DNA of 64,000 nucleotides from assembly GCA_024648695.1 (NCBI GenBank), contig JACAVV010000007.1, positions 62,001 through 126,000 of the forward strand. The letters are read 5' to 3'. Positions 52,337 to 61,904 of the stretch are shown here, one piece after another. Made by a program: the position numbers and the translations under genes. Below the pieces are notes generated by a model. That model searched no databases and was not told the origin of the DNA. It saw nothing but the letters and a program-made list of their open reading frames with translations. How positions within the stretch are numbered: the stretch's first letter is position 1; each line of letters begins with the position of its first letter. The DNA is from Nitrospina sp. Its GTDB lineage: Bacteria > Nitrospinota > Nitrospinia > Nitrospinales > JACRGP01.

Positions 52337-53749
52337 ATGATGCGGCATCGAAGTTGTCATGGAAAACCCAGAATCGCAATCATCGGGGCGGGCCCCGCCG
52401 GATTATCTGCGGCTTATTTTTTGAAGAAGCTGGAATTCGATAACGTTCTGGTACTGGAAAAACTGGGTCGTGTGGGAGGCATGTGCCGGACGCTCACCGA
52501 AGATTATCAATCCTTCGACCTGGGCGCAAACTATCTGACCCCCGCTTACCGCGAAACGCTACGCCTGGCGCGTGAATACAAAATGAAAACTTACGGCGAA
52601 CGGTCACCTACGGCTCTCGATCTTAGAGAACCGGAAGGTTACAAGATTCGAAGCATATGGAAAGCCGCCCGAGAAAACGCGTCGCTTAAAGATCTGGTTT
52701 GTGCTGGCTTACGTTACACCTGGCTGAGGTTCAAGTTGTCCCGGATTATTGACCGTCCCGGATTCAAAAATATCTCTACATATAACGAAGGCGAACTCTG
52801 TATCGATTTCGAAGCGTGGTTGGAAAAACATGATTTGGGGGTGTTAAAACCGTTATTCGAAATTCCCATCACCATCATGGGCTACGGATACCTGCACAAG
52901 ATCGCGGCCCCCTATGCACTCAAGTACATGAGCTTGATGACTTTTGTGCCCATGATGTTCAAGGTCTTTCCGCTCACCGCTTGCCTGCCCTGGCCGAAAC
53001 GTTTCATTAAAGGCTATCAACGATTGTGGCAAGCGGTGTCCTGGGACCTGAACGTGCGTAACAATATCGAGATCACGGGTATCGAACGTAAGGAAAACGA
53101 GCCGATCAAAATCCATTTCAATTACAAATACCAATACCTGAATGAAATCAAAACAAAGGAGGACACCTTTAAATTCGATATAATCATCGTGGCCTGTCCT
53201 CTGGACCCGCAACTATTGGGCGTTTTGCTGGACCAGGACGAAGCGGAACAAAATGCGTTCAAAGGAGTTGATTACTATAGTTACTGCCTGACATCTTACA
53301 ACGTCGACTTTCCAGACATCCCCTGGGAGGACCAATTATTTGCCCTCATGCCTCTGACACCTTTTAAGACGCCCTGGGCCATCACCCGGCAAATGCAGGA
53401 CAGTAACTTATTGCAATTTTATACCAGGGTGCCGAAGAATGAAAATGACCGTCTGGTGGAGGAGGAAGTGGACCAGAACATTCACGATTTCATCGAACGC
53501 CTGGGCGGCACGATCGACCATGAGGAATGGCATACCTATGACCGCTGGCCTTACTTTCAACACGTCAGCCCGGAAAAGATGAAGTCAGGTTTTTATGATA
53601 CCCTGGAAAACCTGCAAGGTCACCGCAACACCTATTACACTGGTGGACTGATGAACTTCGAACTCGTCGAACAAATCATCGCCTACAACCGCGATCTCGT
53701 AAACAGGATTTGTCGGGATTTGAAGGATGGTAATCGCGAAAATGAATAA
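52337..53749 (+). CDS. FAD-dependent amine-oxidase-like oxidoreductase
   Basis: A 470-residue flavoprotein. The dinucleotide-binding motif is IAIIGAGPAGLSAAY (about 12-26), followed by VLEKLGRVGGMCRTL, typical of the NAD(P)-binding Rossmann/amine oxidase (protoporphyrinogen oxidase, desaturase, UDP-galactopyranose mutase-like) superfamily. The C-terminus has the FAD-closing YYTGGLMNFE. The substrate is not evident. AAGGAG lies about 11-15 bases before the ATG pair at 52337/52340. It is convergent with pafA and not linked to the proteasome operon by direction. Confidence 0.83.
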   Translation: MMRHRSCHGKPRIAIIGAGPAGLSAAYFLKKLEFDNVLVLEKLGRVGGMCRTLTEDYQSFDLGANYLTPAYRETLRLAREYKMKTYGERSPTALDLREPEGYKIRSIWKAARENASLKDLVCAGLRYTWLRFKLSRIIDRPGFKNISTYNEGELCIDFEAWLEKHDLGVLKPLFEIPITIMGYGYLHKIAAPYALKYMSLMTFVPMMFKVFPLTACLPWPKRFIKGYQRLWQAVSWDLNVRNNIEITGIERKENEPIKIHFNYKYQYLNEIKTKEDTFKFDIIIVACPLDPQLLGVLLDQDEAEQNAFKGVDYYSYCLTSYNVDFPDIPWEDQLFALMPLTPFKTPWAITRQMQDSNLLQFYTRVPKNENDRLVEEEVDQNIHDFIERLGGTIDHEEWHTYDRWPYFQHVSPEKMKSGFYDTLENLQGHRNTYYTGGLMNFELVEQIIAYNRDLVNRICRDLKDGNRENE

Positions 53750-53921: not shown

Positions 53922-55379
53922 TTATCTCAAAAAATGCTCTTCATCGGCTCGTTCTTCCGGATTCATGCCTTTGAGGTATTCCTTGATTTCTGCTTTATAG
54001 GATACGAAAGGATCCAGCATCAGGAACGGTTCATCTTTGTTCAAGCGGAAACCGATCCAGTCGATGAGGTAGGCGGCCTGACTGTTCATCAGTGATTTGA
54101 CCAACTCGCCGCGTCCGTCAGCGCGGGTACCGCGGGGTGGGTGCGTTTTGGCGTGGTTGACGGCTTCGTCTGAGGTTTTACGGAAAGCGTCTCCGGTTTC
54201 TTCCAGGCCCCAAAACAAACCGTCTTCCTTGTTGAGGTTGTGGAATTCCAGGTCTTGGCTCTTGATCCACGGATCTTTCCAGTCCAGGTTTTCCGCTTTC
54301 ATGAATTCGGTGATCATCCACAACTTGCTGGCCCAGTCCACTCTTCCCAGAACCGCTTCGGGTCCTTTGGCAAGATCGGTCAACACCGACTCCCACACGT
54401 CCAGAATCCAGTTGGTTTCCTGATTGAAATCGGTGAGATGTTTTTTCGCTGTGGTGAGGATATCCCATTGCAGTTCCATCGCTGTAGTCGGCCTGCCGTT
54501 TGCCAGAAGGATTTCCCATTTGAACTCCGGGTCACGCGAAATAGAACGCATGCTGTCGACGGTGTTGTCCAGAATCCATTCATTTTTATCGACGCCCATC
54601 TCGATCATTTCCATCATCAGCGCCGTGGTGCCCATCTTGAGCGCGGTGGAATATTCGCTCATGTTAGAATCGCCGACCAGCAAATGAATGCGCCGATATT
54701 TGCTCGGATCCGATAAAGGTTCGTCCCGGGTATTGACGATAGCGCGGTTGTATTGCACCCAGCGATAGGTTTCGTTCGGAATGTGGTCTGCGCGTTGCGA
54801 AATCTGAAAATTGACGCCAGCCGTTTCCTCGTCGTCCTGAGTGTAACCGTCCCAATCTCTAAACGGATGTGGGTTGCAGGCACCAATGCGACCGGCGCCA
54901 CAAAAGATTTGCCGGGTCGATAAAAAGGAAGCCAGAATCTTTAATTTTTCCCGGTTCTCGAACGGAAAAGAGCGGCTCACCAGATAGTTCTCGTGGCATC
55001 CGAAGGTAGCGTTGGTTTCGAGGTCGACGTTGTTCTTGATGATGGCCACATCCTGATCATAACCCAACGCCTGCAAGGCGTCCTGAATGAGCATATCCCC
55101 AGCACGGTCGAAAGTGATCAGGTCGACCAGATTCGAGCATTCCGGAGACGCGTATTCGAGGTGGCCCATATCGAGATAAATCCTGCCGCCGTTTTTCAGA
55201 AATCCACCGTTGCCCGGGGGCTCGTCATTGGCGCGGTAATGCAGGTCCAGCACGCCCAGGTCTCTGGAAAAAATGTGATTCTTGATGCGGGCGGCAACGT
55301 CCACCGGACTCATCTTGAAGTCGGTGTTCTTGATGAGCATCCCGTATTCGGTTTCGATTCCGTAAATTCGTTTTCTCAT
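53922..55379 (-). CDS. pafA: Pup/UBact ligase PafA
   Basis: A 485-residue carboxylate-amine ligase of the PafA/Dop (glutamine-synthetase-like) fold. It phosphorylates the C-terminal Glu of the ubiquitin-like tag and joins it to substrate lysines. Marks are GIETEYG (7-13), catalytic Asp D70 in RIYLDMG, FGCHENYL, FQISQRADHI, VNTRDEP and RIHLLVGDSNMSE. I call it PafA rather than Dop because of the YLD form at the catalytic Asp and its place after prcA. The usual HPEY reads HLEY here. ATG 55379 overlaps the prcA stop as ATGA; an earlier in-frame start would lie inside prcA. Confidence 0.87.
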   Translation of the reverse strand: MRKRIYGIETEYGMLIKNTDFKMSPVDVAARIKNHIFSRDLGVLDLHYRANDEPPGNGGFLKNGGRIYLDMGHLEYASPECSNLVDLITFDRAGDMLIQDALQALGYDQDVAIIKNNVDLETNATFGCHENYLVSRSFPFENREKLKILASFLSTRQIFCGAGRIGACNPHPFRDWDGYTQDDEETAGVNFQISQRADHIPNETYRWVQYNRAIVNTRDEPLSDPSKYRRIHLLVGDSNMSEYSTALKMGTTALMMEMIEMGVDKNEWILDNTVDSMRSISRDPEFKWEILLANGRPTTAMELQWDILTTAKKHLTDFNQETNWILDVWESVLTDLAKGPEAVLGRVDWASKLWMITEFMKAENLDWKDPWIKSQDLEFHNLNKEDGLFWGLEETGDAFRKTSDEAVNHAKTHPPRGTRADGRGELVKSLMNSQAAYLIDWIGFRLNKDEPFLMLDPFVSYKAEIKEYLKGMNPEERADEEHFLR

Positions 55380-56128
55380 GGAGACACCAACGCCGATTTC
55401 AGTTGCTCGATTTCCTGGTTCGATATCGCCCGGAACAGGCATTTGCGGGGAATGGAACGGGAGAGCACCGCCGCTTCCAGATTCCATTCCTCAAAAGCTT
55501 CTTTTAGCGATTTGCTTTCTGGATCTTTATCTTCATCCTCTCCTTCGCCCTGGTTATTGCCTTCTTCCCACAGCTTGCAGATTTCTTCCAGAGCTTTTTC
55601 CAAAGCAAAAGTTTCGAACGGCGTTTTTTTGATACGGTCCTGAATCCAATCGGCTTTTTTGGTGGTGCCGGCAATGACCGTCCCCTTATTGAATTGTTCC
55701 CAATGACCATCGTAATTGAGCCGGAAAAAATTAGGCTGTCCGTCCAGGTCAAGTTCGGCAAGAATGAGTTGCACAAGGTAAGGCGCTCGCTGTACTTCTT
55801 CAAAATTTTGTTTCAGTGCCGGGGCGATCCCGAATTGCAACATCCGTGATAAGGTGACATCTTCCGCCGAGCGGTTGAATCCTTCCAGATGAGACATATC
55901 CAACAGCGACATGCGCAAACGCTCGACATCTGCCGGGTGGCCCAGTCCGCCGAGGGCGATGCGGTCGTAAATTTCGAAAATCTTGCCTTTTTGTGCGGAA
56001 AAGCCGAGCAAAACTGCGCCATCATTATAGGGCACGGCAATGACCGGCAGTCCTTTGCGAAGTTTTTCCTGAACATAACTGTGGCGGGTGGAGATGGCCT
56101 CCATCCAACGAAAGGGTTCTTCAAACAT
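55376..56128 (-). CDS. prcA: 20S proteasome alpha subunit
   Basis: A 250-residue non-catalytic alpha subunit, forming the outer rings and gate of the 20S core. The family start is seen in PFRWMEAISTRHSYVQEKLRKG and in VIAVPYNDGAVLLGF. KIFEIYDRIALGGLGHPADVERLR is the conserved helix-1 region. There is no Thr at the mature N-terminus. An unusual very acidic insert (about 191-205, EEGNNQGEGEDEDKD) lies near the C-terminal helix. It is 21 bases downstream of prcB and overlaps pafA by four bases. Confidence 0.9.
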   Translation of the reverse strand: MFEEPFRWMEAISTRHSYVQEKLRKGLPVIAVPYNDGAVLLGFSAQKGKIFEIYDRIALGGLGHPADVERLRMSLLDMSHLEGFNRSAEDVTLSRMLQFGIAPALKQNFEEVQRAPYLVQLILAELDLDGQPNFFRLNYDGHWEQFNKGTVIAGTTKKADWIQDRIKKTPFETFALEKALEEICKLWEEGNNQGEGEDEDKDPESKSLKEAFEEWNLEAAVLSRSIPRKCLFRAISNQEIEQLKSALVSP

Positions 56129-56149: not shown

Positions 56150-56953
56150 TCATTGGGTTCGCTTCATGGAAGAACGGTACAACTCTTCCATATCCGCCTC
56201 AGGTATGTATTCGTATCCAGTGTGATCGATCTTTGCGATAATGGGAAAAATATTGTCATCGGGCCGCGCTTGCCCGGTCGCCGAATCGAATTGAGCGGCT
56301 GTTTCCAGCAGACGGATCGCCAATACCGCGGCCTGTTTGAAATCGCGTCCAGCAAGGGGCTGTTCTCCCCAAAGGTCCTCATGTTCCATGATTCCCCGAA
56401 TCACCGGCGAACCGGATCCGGTTGCGGTGTGCGTCAGAATCTGAAACTGCGCGCCTAACAAATCGTAAAAATAGATCGCGGGTTTTTCGGAACGAAGATC
56501 GTAGGTGGCGAAGATTGGACTGACCGCTCCCACGCCCTGAATCGCCATCCCCATGTTTTCCTTGAGCAGATTGGACAGCGCACGAATTTTACCCTCGGCG
56601 CTCAAAGGTTGCAGTTGCGAGCGCCGGAAATATTCGAAATTGTGAGACAGCACACGCGCCATTTCAAAAGCGGTGGCAGGCACTCCGGCGATGGCCATCA
56701 GGGAATAATCGTCGATGGGAATGACTTTGTCGCACCGTTCGTACATGATAGCGTTGCCTGCTGTCGCACGCCTGTCTCCTGCTACCAGTACACCGCCCTT
56801 GTAATGAAAGGCGAGCACAGTGGTCCCCTGCGGCACTTGATCACGTTCCAGTTTCAAGGAATCGTTCGCGCTTCCCTGGAGTTTGTATCCAGAACGCTTG
56901 AGTAATTCAAAAAAATCTCCAGAGCTACCGGAGGTATCGATCTCAGATATCAT
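56150..56953 (-). CDS. prcB: 20S proteasome beta subunit (protease)
   Basis: A 267-residue catalytic beta subunit with a 43-residue propeptide. Cleavage before Thr44 (PQG-TTVLAF) frees the nucleophile. Mature features are the Asp in VAGDRRAT, the Lys in CDKVIPIDD (Lys33 equivalent), GVPATAFEMARVL and the SGS motif within TATGSGSPVIRG. Its ATG overlaps the pup stop as ATGA. It forms the inner rings of the 20S core with PrcA. Confidence 0.95.
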   Translation of the reverse strand: MISEIDTSGSSGDFFELLKRSGYKLQGSANDSLKLERDQVPQGTTVLAFHYKGGVLVAGDRRATAGNAIMYERCDKVIPIDDYSLMAIAGVPATAFEMARVLSHNFEYFRRSQLQPLSAEGKIRALSNLLKENMGMAIQGVGAVSPIFATYDLRSEKPAIYFYDLLGAQFQILTHTATGSGSPVIRGIMEHEDLWGEQPLAGRDFKQAAVLAIRLLETAAQFDSATGQARPDDNIFPIIAKIDHTGYEYIPEADMEELYRSSMKRTQ

Positions 56954-57126
56954 TGGCCGGTGCGCTGTTTGTATTTTTCCGATTGCTTGGGATCTACTTT
57001 TTTCATTCGTTTCAAAATACTATCTTTACCCGGACGCGAGGTGTCGGGCCCGGAAGGGCCAGCTTCCTTGCGGTCTGGGGACGAGTCTTTCTTTTCTTCC
57101 CTTCTCACGGGATCATTCATTTCCAT
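56950..57126 (-). CDS. pup: Ubiquitin-like protein Pup, UBact type
   Basis: A 58-residue, highly charged, disordered-looking protein between dop and prcB, the canonical pup position. ATG 57126 has AAGGAG eight bases upstream, and the stop overlaps prcB as ATGA. The C-terminal third is the conserved part (LKRMKKVDPKQSEKYKQRTG then Gln58). It matches the UBact pattern of Gram-negative bacteria, with an R-[TS]-G-[QE] end in place of Pup's GGQ/GGE. A terminal Gln means Dop must deamidate it to Glu before PafA can use it. The N-terminal half is variable and rich in Pro, Ser and charged residues. Confidence 0.9.
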   Translation of the reverse strand: MEMNDPVRREEKKDSSPDRKEAGPSGPDTSRPGKDSILKRMKKVDPKQSEKYKQRTGQ

Positions 57127-57138
57127 ACCAGCGACTCC

Positions 57139-58602
57139 TTAAATTTTATTTAACGCTTCTTCCACATCGGACGTGGAAATTATATCACTCAAATCGACCG
57201 TATCCCCATTTTCGAATTCGATTCCAGTCCAGTGAATTCGTTTAATACGCGCCGACTGCTTTTCAACATACTTTCCGCGGATGCGGGCACGGGATCCTTC
57301 GGGACCTTGTTTGCGCGCGCAAGCCACGTCTTCCTCATTCATAAACCGGTAAATTTCGTTTTCCTGTTCGAGTCCATAATACAGTCCGCGTTCGGGATCC
57401 AGATTATGGTACTCCAGATCCACACTTTTCAACCAGGGGTCTTCCCAGGTAAGTCCTTCGGTTTTTATAAACTGCTCGAACAGTTTTTTCTTGATCGCCC
57501 AGTCGATACGGTCGGCCAGTTTGGCGGGATCGGTTTTCAACTCGGTCAGGGTGCGTTCCCATTCCTTCAGGACCCAGTCCCAATCATCGTTTTGTCCCTG
57601 GTATTGCTTGGCGGCCTGCTCCAGATAGATCGCCTGAATGTCCAGGGAGCTGAGTTTCCCTGCATCGCTTGTTATTGTTCGTGTCCCGGTGAGATCATAA
57701 GAAATTTCTTTAATCGCCGCCACAGGATCCTGCACCATCGGGACCTTGCCCAGTTTTTCTTCACCGATCAGGGACAGGACCATTTGCGTGGTTCCCACTT
57801 TTAGCGCAGTGGCGTAGGGTGACATATTAGCGTCGCCTAAAATCAGGTGCAGTCGGCGGTATTTTCGCTCGCTCGCATGGGCCTCATCGCGGGTGTTGAT
57901 GATGGGACGATTCGTCATGGTCTCGATGCTGAGTTGCGATTCGATAAAGTCTGCTCTTTGCGACAACTGCAAGCCATAATGCGGCATGCCAAGTCGCGCT
58001 TCCGATCCCACCTTCCCTGCGCCGGCATACAACTGACGCGTGATGAGAAAGGGAATCAGGCCCTCCACCCAGGTGTCAAATGAAAGCTCACGCGGAATCA
58101 GGTAATTGTCATGAGTGCCGTAACTGTGGCCGCTGTAGTCCGTATTGTTCTTGAATACCTGCAGTCCGTCGTTACCAAGCTCTTTATTCCGAATGCGGAC
58201 ACAATCCTGCACAATTCGATCACCTGCCAGATCATGCGCCACCAACTGAAACACGCTCCTGCATTCCGGGGTGGCGTATTCGGGATGCGTGTGGTCGTTA
58301 TAAAAACGCGCACCATTGACCAGCACCCGGTCGCTTTTCATTTCCAGGTAGGAGAAGGGACGCTTCTCATCTTCAGCACAAAATTCGTCTTCCTCTTCAT
58401 CCTGCGCCAGGCGTCTCACCGTATAGCCACGCTGGTCCTTATGTGCCTGCTCGCGGGAATAGGCCCAGGACCCAAACGCGCTGGTGAACGGACAGCATTT
58501 CAGTAAAGCCATCGATTCGTCAACCGGGTCAGACTTTTCCAGGTCCTCCCGGATGATTCCGTATTCAGTTTCCAATCCCATCAAGGGAACAACAGGAGTC
58601 AT
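57139..58602 (-). CDS. dop: Deamidase/depupylase Dop
   Basis: A 487-residue protein homologous to PafA. Dop converts the tag's C-terminal Gln to Glu and also removes the tag from substrates. Marks are MGLETEYG (8-15), catalytic Asp D103 in FYNDHTHPEY, YGTHDNYLIPRE, LQLSQRADFIE, INTRDEAH and RLHLILGDANMSPYATALKVGT. The long insert between about residues 36 and 92 is in the place of the Dop-specific loop. The NDHTHPEY form also favours Dop over PafA. Its ATG overlaps the mpa stop by four bases. Confidence 0.88.
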   Translation of the reverse strand: MTPVVPLMGLETEYGIIREDLEKSDPVDESMALLKCCPFTSAFGSWAYSREQAHKDQRGYTVRRLAQDEEEDEFCAEDEKRPFSYLEMKSDRVLVNGARFYNDHTHPEYATPECRSVFQLVAHDLAGDRIVQDCVRIRNKELGNDGLQVFKNNTDYSGHSYGTHDNYLIPRELSFDTWVEGLIPFLITRQLYAGAGKVGSEARLGMPHYGLQLSQRADFIESQLSIETMTNRPIINTRDEAHASERKYRRLHLILGDANMSPYATALKVGTTQMVLSLIGEEKLGKVPMVQDPVAAIKEISYDLTGTRTITSDAGKLSSLDIQAIYLEQAAKQYQGQNDDWDWVLKEWERTLTELKTDPAKLADRIDWAIKKKLFEQFIKTEGLTWEDPWLKSVDLEYHNLDPERGLYYGLEQENEIYRFMNEEDVACARKQGPEGSRARIRGKYVEKQSARIKRIHWTGIEFENGDTVDLSDIISTSDVEEALNKI

Positions 58603-60230
58603 ATAATTGATCGGCTGATAGTCTGAGTGGTGGCGTGGTCAGATTGATTGGCTTTTCGGACACGAACCACGTTTCGCGGATCGTGGTCGAGCAGTTGCAA
58701 CCAGTCATCCATGTTGGAATCTGCGGGCAGAACCGTATTCTCACTGAATTCGTTTTCCAGAGCTTTTAACAAATCATCTACTTTAATAGAAAGGTCTTCT
58801 CCCTTAATAGCCCGTTCGATGGCCCTTTCTTTGGCACGGCGTGCAACGCTTTCCAGAATAGCGCCGGAAACGAAATCTTTCCAATACAGCTTCTGCATTT
58901 CTCCGCTTCGAAGAGTCAGGTTCAGTAAATGCTGATCCCTGGATTTATCAAAGAGTTTTTCCAATACCGGGTCAAGCATTTTGGATACCGGACTCAATTC
59001 CATCGGCAGGTTTTCTTTCAGGTAGACCTTGAGAATCGCCGCACAATCTTCACGGTTAGGGCGGCTCACCTTGATTTTTTTGTCAATTCGACCCGGCCGC
59101 AATACCGCAGGGTCAATCAGGTCGGGACGGTTGGTAGCTAAAATGACAACCGTATCGCGAAGCGACTGAATGCCATCCATTTCCGCACAGAACATGGGGA
59201 CCAGCGTGTTGGAAATATTATTGCCGCGCCATCCGCCGCGTGTGCCCAAAACAGACTCGGCCTCATCGATAAAAATGAAGGGGACCTGGTTATTTTCTTT
59301 ATATTCACGGGCTTTCTGGAAAATTTCCCGCACTTTGCGCTCGGATTCCCCCAACCACATATTGAGAATTTCGGGTCCTTTAACATGAATAAAACGACCC
59401 CGCAGTTCCTTACCCTCTTCTTCAGAAAGTTTTTTAATGAGGTCCGAAAGGATAGCCTTGCCAATAAGGGTTTTACCGCATCCCGGAGGACCGTAAAACA
59501 GGAAACCTTTAGGCAACTGGAACTCCATGGTTTTCATGATTTCCCCATGCAATATGGGGTATTCAATGACCTTGCGTACCTCTTCAATGACCTTTTCCTG
59601 TCCACCCACTTGATTCCAGCCGGTCTCAATGAAGTCGTCGTCGACCACCCGTTTGGCCTCCCGTTTGGGAAGCGTTCGTATGATAACTTTCTGACAGGGG
59701 TCCAGAATCACTTCCTCGCCCTCTTTAAGGGAACCGGGATCGATGTCCGGATGCAGGAAGACCATTGTTTCGCCACTGGGGGTCGTGTTCGTTCCACCAC
59801 CACTGCCCACCATCCATTGGCCGTTCATCAGGCGAGTGGTGATTCTCATCACCGGACCTTGATCGGGAAGCGGGAGTTTGGCGATGGCAACAAAACCTTC
59901 GTTCAGGGCAACCTGATCACCAATCTTTAAAGGTCCTTCTTCTAATACTTCCGGAGAGACCGCCGCCTGGTATTCCGTACCCGAAGTCACCACACGATAC
60001 AAATCGTTCAAGCCTTGTCCGACGATGGTGCCGATACGATGGGCCGGGGCTTGCAGAGTTTCAATGGTGTCCTCAAGGGTTTTTACCTTTTGGGCATATT
60101 GTTGGGCGATCTGCTGGGTTTGCAGGAGCGCATCCCGAAGATCAAAAATTTTATCCTGCAAATAAGGTTGACCGTCGGTTTCTTCCAGAATCTGATCGAT
60201 GAGTTCTATAATATGTGTTGGATCTCCCAT
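58599..60230 (-). CDS. mpa: Proteasomal ATPase Mpa/ARC
   Basis: A 543-residue AAA+ unfoldase that binds the tag and feeds substrates to the 20S core. An N-terminal coiled coil (about 28-62) is the Pup-binding part. A double OB region (about 65-190) follows, then one AAA+ domain with Walker A GPPGCGKT (247-254), Walker B FIFIDEAES (about 318-326), pore-loop segment NMWLGESE and Arg finger segment LRPGRID. The C-terminus ends SRSII, without the GQYL tail that docks actinobacterial Mpa into the 20S ring. AAGGA lies six bases before ATG 60230. First gene of the proteasome operon. Confidence 0.92.
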   Translation of the reverse strand: MGDPTHIIELIDQILEETDGQPYLQDKIFDLRDALLQTQQIAQQYAQKVKTLEDTIETLQAPAHRIGTIVGQGLNDLYRVVTSGTEYQAAVSPEVLEEGPLKIGDQVALNEGFVAIAKLPLPDQGPVMRITTRLMNGQWMVGSGGGTNTTPSGETMVFLHPDIDPGSLKEGEEVILDPCQKVIIRTLPKREAKRVVDDDFIETGWNQVGGQEKVIEEVRKVIEYPILHGEIMKTMEFQLPKGFLFYGPPGCGKTLIGKAILSDLIKKLSEEEGKELRGRFIHVKGPEILNMWLGESERKVREIFQKAREYKENNQVPFIFIDEAESVLGTRGGWRGNNISNTLVPMFCAEMDGIQSLRDTVVILATNRPDLIDPAVLRPGRIDKKIKVSRPNREDCAAILKVYLKENLPMELSPVSKMLDPVLEKLFDKSRDQHLLNLTLRSGEMQKLYWKDFVSGAILESVARRAKERAIERAIKGEDLSIKVDDLLKALENEFSENTVLPADSNMDDWLQLLDHDPRNVVRVRKANQSDHATTQTISRSII

Positions 60231-60605: not shown

Positions 60606-61904
60606 ATGCCGTCAGCACAAAACAAGCCTTACATCGATAAATGCATTGTCAGCTTCAGCCATAATTGTTTCGAAAACCGGCGGGAGGCTGACCAGTTGAG
60701 CCTGGAGAAGGCCCGGCGTGAAATTGCGCAGGGCAAAAACGGCATCAGCCACCTCATCCTCAGGGCATGGGACGACGATGTGGACCGGTTGAAGTTTCTA
60801 TTCCTCTTAAACGGCATCCCGGTTATGTGTTATTCCCTGGCCAATTTACTGCTTTCTTCCTTGTCGGAAGTTGTGGTGGTAGGATCACCAGAGGTGGGGC
60901 AGGTTCTGGAAGCTTTTCTCAAAAGTGTGGGGACCCTGGGCAAGCGAATTGAATTCGTGCCGGAAAACCGGGATCAATTGACGATGGTGAGCACTCTGAA
61001 TCTGGGCCGGAAGCCGCTTTCCTTGCGATCAAACGAGTTGGTTCTGTTCCAGCCGGGCGATTTGCCATTCATGTACGATGTGGAAAAGGTGTTGAAGGAC
61101 GCGGACATTGAGAAAAACAACCTTGTGCTGTGGCTCAATTCCCGGCAGGAGATGTTCCCGGATTTTACCAGCGAGCCCGAATCCGAATTCGTGCAAAGAA
61201 ATTACCATTACCGCCTGATTGACGATGAGAAAAAGTGCCTGCACGACGTGAAGGAACCCAATACCTATCCGATCAATCTGGAAACTTTGGAAACGGACAT
61301 TATCGAACTGGTGCATGCACAGAGAAAAGACGGACAACTTATAAACGCCTTGTTCAGTAAAGCCCTGACTTTGCCGCATCGTTTCTTGCGTATGTTCCCG
61401 GTGCTCGCTAACCATTTGATGTACTTTCGTTCGAACCTGAATCAATTTCGGCCCAATGACACCTATCAGTTCGGGATGCATTTAAACAATTTCAACAGAG
61501 GCGCGGAAATTTTGCTGAACACCCCGTTTCGGGCCAAAGTCCACAACGACCCTGCCTTCGTCTCCGACGTGGACGCTCTGGAAGACTGGGAAGATTTCGA
61601 AGCGCTGATTCATCATGCCACCAAAGAGTTCGGTGAAGACGGATTGTGCAGAATCCATCCCGGTGGCGACCTTCTGTTAAAATTCAGAGAAGATGCCATG
61701 CCCGCCTTGCGTGAAAGCTTGCCGATGTATAAGGATTTCCCCGGTTACCTCAATCACATTTACGAAAGCCTGGAAATGGGACACGTGCCTTACGATTCGA
61801 AAGGCCGCTATCAAAACTCAGCCATCCCTAAAAGCCTGATCCAAAGTGCCAGCAACTGGTATCAGGATAAAGCCGCCACCCACCCCAAAACTTTGACTGC
61901 CTGA
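60606..61904 (+). CDS. Nucleotidyltransferase-like protein, unknown
   Basis: A 432-residue soluble protein. Residues about 45-170 have the strand/helix rhythm of a MobA/GlmU-type sugar-nucleotidyltransferase fold. LILRAWDDDVDRLKFLF stands where the NTP-binding loop is expected, followed by NGIPVMCYSLANLLLSSLSEVVVVG and LVLFQPGDLPFMYDV, with an acidic pair as in metal-binding sites. The Gly-rich GXGTRMG loop of active enzymes is absent, so it may have lost that activity. The C-terminal half is not recognised. Divergent from mpa; any link to the proteasome is positional only. Confidence 0.55.
   Translation: MPSAQNKPYIDKCIVSFSHNCFENRREADQLSLEKARREIAQGKNGISHLILRAWDDDVDRLKFLFLLNGIPVMCYSLANLLLSSLSEVVVVGSPEVGQVLEAFLKSVGTLGKRIEFVPENRDQLTMVSTLNLGRKPLSLRSNELVLFQPGDLPFMYDVEKVLKDADIEKNNLVLWLNSRQEMFPDFTSEPESEFVQRNYHYRLIDDEKKCLHDVKEPNTYPINLETLETDIIELVHAQRKDGQLINALFSKALTLPHRFLRMFPVLANHLMYFRSNLNQFRPNDTYQFGMHLNNFNRGAEILLNTPFRAKVHNDPAFVSDVDALEDWEDFEALIHHATKEFGEDGLCRIHPGGDLLLKFREDAMPALRESLPMYKDFPGYLNHIYESLEMGHVPYDSKGRYQNSAIPKSLIQSASNWYQDKAATHPKTLTA

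Follow-up and report, generated by a model that had tools for sequence, protein, structure and literature searches.

The closest described relatives of the locus considered here are the UBact and Pup systems. The name UBact dates from 2017 (Lehmann et al., 2017, doi 10.1016/j.bbrc.2017.01.037, as cited in PMC12751074), Pup was noted in Nitrospirae by Iyer in 2008 (PMC2588565), and the pathway in Nitrospinae has been described as horizontally acquired (PMC7947786). Pup of Actinobacteria and Nitrospirota (PF05639) shares with UBact the gene neighbourhood, including homologous Dop, PafA, Mpa, PrcA, and PrcB, and its C-terminus, Y-x-Q-[KR]-x-G-[E/Q], is in register with that of UBact. The 2017 paper reportedly lists Nitrospinae and gives R-[T/S]-G-[E/Q] as the defining C-terminus of UBact. 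Both the UBact family with its gene neighbourhood and the occurrence of the pathway in Nitrospinota are already known. Judging by the open literature searched, UBact is catalogued and hardly studied at the bench; neither UBact biochemistry nor experiments on any Nitrospinota UBact were found there, most subscription journals lying outside the search. The new details that sequence comparison appears to add concern the switching between terminal Gln and Glu, the co-occurrence with Pup in Nitrospirota, the separate clades of the enzymes, and the C-terminal tail of Mpa.

The window, a stretch of 64,000 nucleotides from a Nitrospina sp. genome, contains on its minus strand six genes in the order mpa, dop, UBact, prcB, prcA, and pafA (Table 1). 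These are very probably a true operon for UBact conjugation and the proteasome, belonging to a Nitrospinota bacterium; conjugation, deamidation, and degradation are predicted for it. A preliminary description had placed a 58-residue protein ending in Arg-Thr-Gly-Gln between dop and prcB, within an mpa-dop-pup-prcB-prcA-pafA set on one strand. Its coordinates proved exact, the Pfam and NCBIfam matches bear out the whole set, and the small gene in it is UBact. The described coupling to prcB is also evident, the TGA of UBact overlapping the prcB ATG as ATGA; such overlaps are found at mpa/dop and prcA/pafA as well, that is, at three of the five junctions. The dop stop codon is separated from the UBact start by a gap of 12 nt, and the Shine-Dalgarno-like sequence lies 8 nt upstream of the ATG. 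Scans for promoters and terminators around the operon gave nothing better than shuffled sequences.

Table 1. Genes and signals of the UBact locus and its flanks (window coordinates).
Feature	Position	Strand	Supporting details
FAD oxidoreductase-like flanking gene	52337-53749	plus	outside operon
pafA, predicted UBact ligase	53922..55379	minus	PF03136 429 bits; without Dop-loop; ATG at 55379 overlaps prcA stop as ATGA
prcA, divergent 20S proteasome alpha subunit	55376..56128	minus	PF00227 30 bits; TIGR03691 67 bits; Rhodococcus alpha 1q5q E 2.4e-12
prcB, 20S proteasome beta subunit	56150..56953	minus	TIGR03690 162 bits; TTVLAF after 43-residue propeptide
UBact, 58-aa ubiquitin-like modifier	56950..57126	minus	ATG at 57126, TGA 56952-56950; ends Y-K-Q-R-T-G-Q
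dop stop codon and short gap before UBact	57127..57141	minus	Shine-Dalgarno-like AAGGAG; sequence read ...AAATTTAAGGAGTCGCTGGTATGG
dop, predicted UBact deamidase and de-conjugase	57139..58602	minus	Dop-loop and catalytic Asp (FYNDHTHPEYA); TIGR03688 best
mpa, proteasomal AAA ATPase	58599..60230	minus	TIGR03689 381 bits; Mtb Mpa 7px9 E 3.1e-84; C-terminus SRSII
nucleotidyltransferase-like flanking gene	60606-61904	plus	outside operon

The assignment of the small protein, MEMNDPVRREEKKDSSPDRKEAGPSGPDTSRPGKDSILKRMKKVDPKQSEKYKQRTGQ (58 aa, C-terminus YKQRTGQ), to the UBact family is supported by its matches to Pfam UBact (PF20513; 70.2 bits, E 1.3e-19, cut-off 27.8) and to NCBIfam ubiq_like_UBact (NF033388; 69.1 bits, cut-off 35), by its RTGQ end, and by the presence of PafA, Dop, Mpa, and 20S homologues in one operon. 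It resembles the catalogued UBact proteins in length, in the variable N-terminal half, in the R-T-G-[E/Q] end, and in having mpa, dop, prcB, prcA, and pafA as neighbours, and differs from them only by ordinary divergence; RTG[EQ] terminates every complete UBact gene read in Nitrospinota and Nitrospirota. A PDB search using this sequence returned no match. In the AF2 model built from a 21-sequence alignment, the N-terminal half has low confidence and helices are placed at residues 34-44 and 46-56, in a block with pLDDT of 70-89. The fold as predicted suits, as expected, a Pup-like modifier that would be mostly disordered alone.

The partner genes allow the following pathway to be proposed. UBact would be translated with a C-terminal Gln, the side-chain amide of which would be hydrolysed by Dop to give Glu; PafA would then use ATP to phosphorylate the Glu side-chain carboxylate and join UBact to a target lysine. 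Mpa would capture the disordered tag and thread the tagged protein into the PrcA/PrcB 20S proteasome, and Dop could also strip the tag. The window Dop is similar to solved Dop (5lrt/4b0r; phmmer E 3.4e-89), and its best-ranking NCBIfam family is TIGR03688, matched over the full length at 410 bits, under the cut-off of 492 bits; both features expected of a Dop are present, namely the Dop-loop and, within NGARFYNDHTHPEYATPE, the catalytic Asp. The PafA protein has its catalytic Asp in NGGRIYLDMGHLEYASPE (YLDMGHLEYA) and lacks the Dop-loop; TIGR03686 ranks best for it, at 341 bits and below its cut-off, and its similarity to solved PafA and to solved Dop is about equal. The alpha-loop, DHIPNETYRWVQYNRAIVN, carries residues neither of actinobacterial PafA nor of Dop, as is also the case for UBact-type PafA. 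Since this loop fits neither enzyme and the score is below the cut-off, the ligase role of PafA rests on the absent Dop-loop, the tree discussed below, and the profile ranks. PrcA is divergent yet recognisable as an alpha subunit, and Thr44 of PrcB corresponds to Thr1 of the solved beta subunits when the Rhodococcus and Mtb proteins are aligned from Thr1, so the catalytic threonine is in place.

The terminal residue deserves separate consideration. Gln ends 57 of the 58 Nitrospinota UBact proteins, always encoded by CAA, and the only Glu (L049, in genome G008) is encoded by GAG; in Nitrospirota, Glu was found in 74 and Gln in 15 of the 89 genes read. Mapped on a tree of Dop from 136 loci, these states change between Gln and Glu at least 14 times by parsimony, and well-supported branches by themselves force 12 changes. 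The CAA codon of Nitrospinota accompanies the ATGA overlap; this overlap determines the third base of the last codon but leaves both Gln and Glu possible. Nearly all loci that extend far enough have Dop adjoining UBact, and each of the 80 UBact-bearing Nitrospirota genomes tested carries two or more PF03136 genes. A link of terminal Gln with the presence of Dop was looked for and not found, Dop-type genes being present with either residue. By analogy with Pup biochemistry, a terminal Gln would require deamidation by Dop, which fits a Dop with the catalytic Asp and the Dop-loop. Gln ends may be tolerated because Dop is able to deamidate them, and Dop may be retained for more than deamidation. 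With Dop constant and the terminal residue switching repeatedly between Gln and Glu, these loci offer a natural experiment on whether the deamidase or the de-conjugase role keeps dop. That Dop-type genes are found even with a UBact that ends in Glu, for which deamidation is unneeded, could also be taken to mean that UBact is conjugated and serves mainly as a reversible regulatory mark, with degradation a lesser function, and a precedent is provided by Corynebacterium, in which Pup persists without a proteasome. However, prcB, prcA, and mpa belong to the same operon in nearly all relatives read and the catalytic Thr of PrcB is kept, which makes such a role improbable, albeit one that retains some weight, when compared with conjugation coupled to the proteasome.

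It is much harder to regard the small protein as canonical Pup, gained from Actinobacteria together with the operon. The homologous enzymes, the common Y-x-Q-[KR]-x-G-[EQ] end, and the reported horizontal acquisition of the Nitrospinae pathway (PMC7947786) would agree with such an origin, but the Pup family PF05639 matches neither the window protein, up to E 1 and E 10, nor any of 61 Nitrospinota genomes, the window's own included. A comparison of UBact and Pup profiles gave a probability of 0.5%, which is not significant and, with only four Pup sequences, is a weak negative. The window UBact is also shorter than Pup and, as noted in the preliminary description, has Thr-Gly in place of Gly-Gly: YKQRTGQ aligns with YVQKGGE of Pup, so the Gly-Gly-[E/Q] end of Pup is not found. 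The enzymes point in the same direction. When 64 enzymes were placed in one tree, those of UBact type formed groups of their own (Dop, SH-aLRT 96; PafA, 100), apart from the Pup-type and actinobacterial enzymes, and the window Dop and PafA fall into these respective clades; in this tree, the grouping of Nitrospirota UBact-Dop as one has low support (22), and actinobacterial PafA is represented by one sequence on a long branch. An origin as canonical Pup is therefore very unlikely, and the UBact-type modifier proposed in the preliminary description, which had named a match to Pup or UBact profiles as a test, finds its support in scores well over both UBact cut-offs. A complete, compact, single-copy UBact operon in a genome with no detected Pup gives an uncomplicated setting in which to test UBact conjugation.

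A different situation is found in Nitrospirota. UBact was detected in 134 of 396 sampled genomes of this phylum, and among 80 UBact-bearing genomes sampled, 72 also have Pup; most have four PF03136 genes. Six second loci were read (L232-L237), and in each of them an Mpa ending in G-H-Y-[LF] occurs with Dop and PafA. A Pup ending in GG[EQ] adjoins the second locus in four of the six and lies elsewhere in the other genomes, and proteasome genes are present in two second loci, prcB with prcA in L234 and prcA in L233. The tail of Mpa follows the type of the system: Pup-type Mpa ends in G[QH]YL (GQYL in Actinobacteria), in contrast to SRSII of the window Mpa (mpa 3' end at 58599-58640). All 25 Nitrospinota Mpa read end in RS[IVM][IL], and the tails of Nitrospirota UBact-type Mpa are more variable, most ending in ..II and a subset in R[ATQ]IE. 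The GQYL tail of mycobacterial Mpa is required for gate opening (PMC8142254), so its absence here is a point against the proposed pathway, and the different tail would imply that Mpa docks on PrcA through another contact. It can be tentatively suggested, with somewhat more doubt than confidence, that most UBact-bearing Nitrospirota run UBact and Pup in parallel as orthogonal systems, with a separate ligase, de-conjugase, ATPase, and docking tail for each (Pup, G[HQ]YL; UBact, tails such as RS[IVM]I or NQII), and that Nitrospinota such as this one keep UBact alone. In Nitrospirota with both systems, it should be possible to test directly whether two bacterial ubiquitin-like tags are orthogonal. 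No paper on UBact-Pup co-occurrence was found in the open literature, in a search that misses most subscription journals. A second, weak UBact match in genome G217 (26.1 bits, under the cut-off) was rejected as spurious, for it is antisense to a transporter-like gene of 421 aa.

The preliminary description had also set conservation of the small frame in related genomes as a test, and UBact is indeed present in 58 of 77 Nitrospinota genomes, all of one order; it was found in three of the four other genomes of the window's own family and is absent from the 12 genomes that represent the class outside this order. Across the phylum, the last 14 residues, DPKQ[ST]E[KRN]YKQRTG[QE], are near-invariant and residues 10-30 are variable, and UBact is coupled to the next gene by ATGA in 56 of the 58 loci. 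A chance ORF or degenerate relic, which 58 codons with a low-complexity, variable first half might suggest, can be practically dismissed, since the frame is conserved in this way and matches two curated families. UBact lies inside the proteasome operon in the 58 Nitrospinota genomes, and its place in the operon varies: the window has dop-UBact-prcB-prcA-pafA, and two other genera have dop-prcA-UBact-prcB-pafA. A few loci could not be read for order, as their prcB open frame runs on over UBact. Three UBact-less genomes, G049 (95% complete), G026 (90%), and G004 (79%), have no PF03136 gene either, and in these three the UBact system seems, from gene content, to have been lost as a unit, Dop and PafA included. 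Two further genomes without UBact do carry PF03136 genes, in fragments on short contigs.

It is also worth noting that the layout departs from this pattern in two genomes of one genus, where neither prcA nor pafA was found next to prcB (G045, loci L060 and L074; G046, locus L055); in G045, a second PF03136 gene is carried on another contig (C21), and PrcA was not located. In one Nitrospinota genus, an extra, diverged PrcB gene lies upstream of prcA (L034:4656-5459, L046:5236-6060, and L035:736-1515); the L035 copy is in pieces, and the catalytic TT is retained in the copies of L034 and L046.
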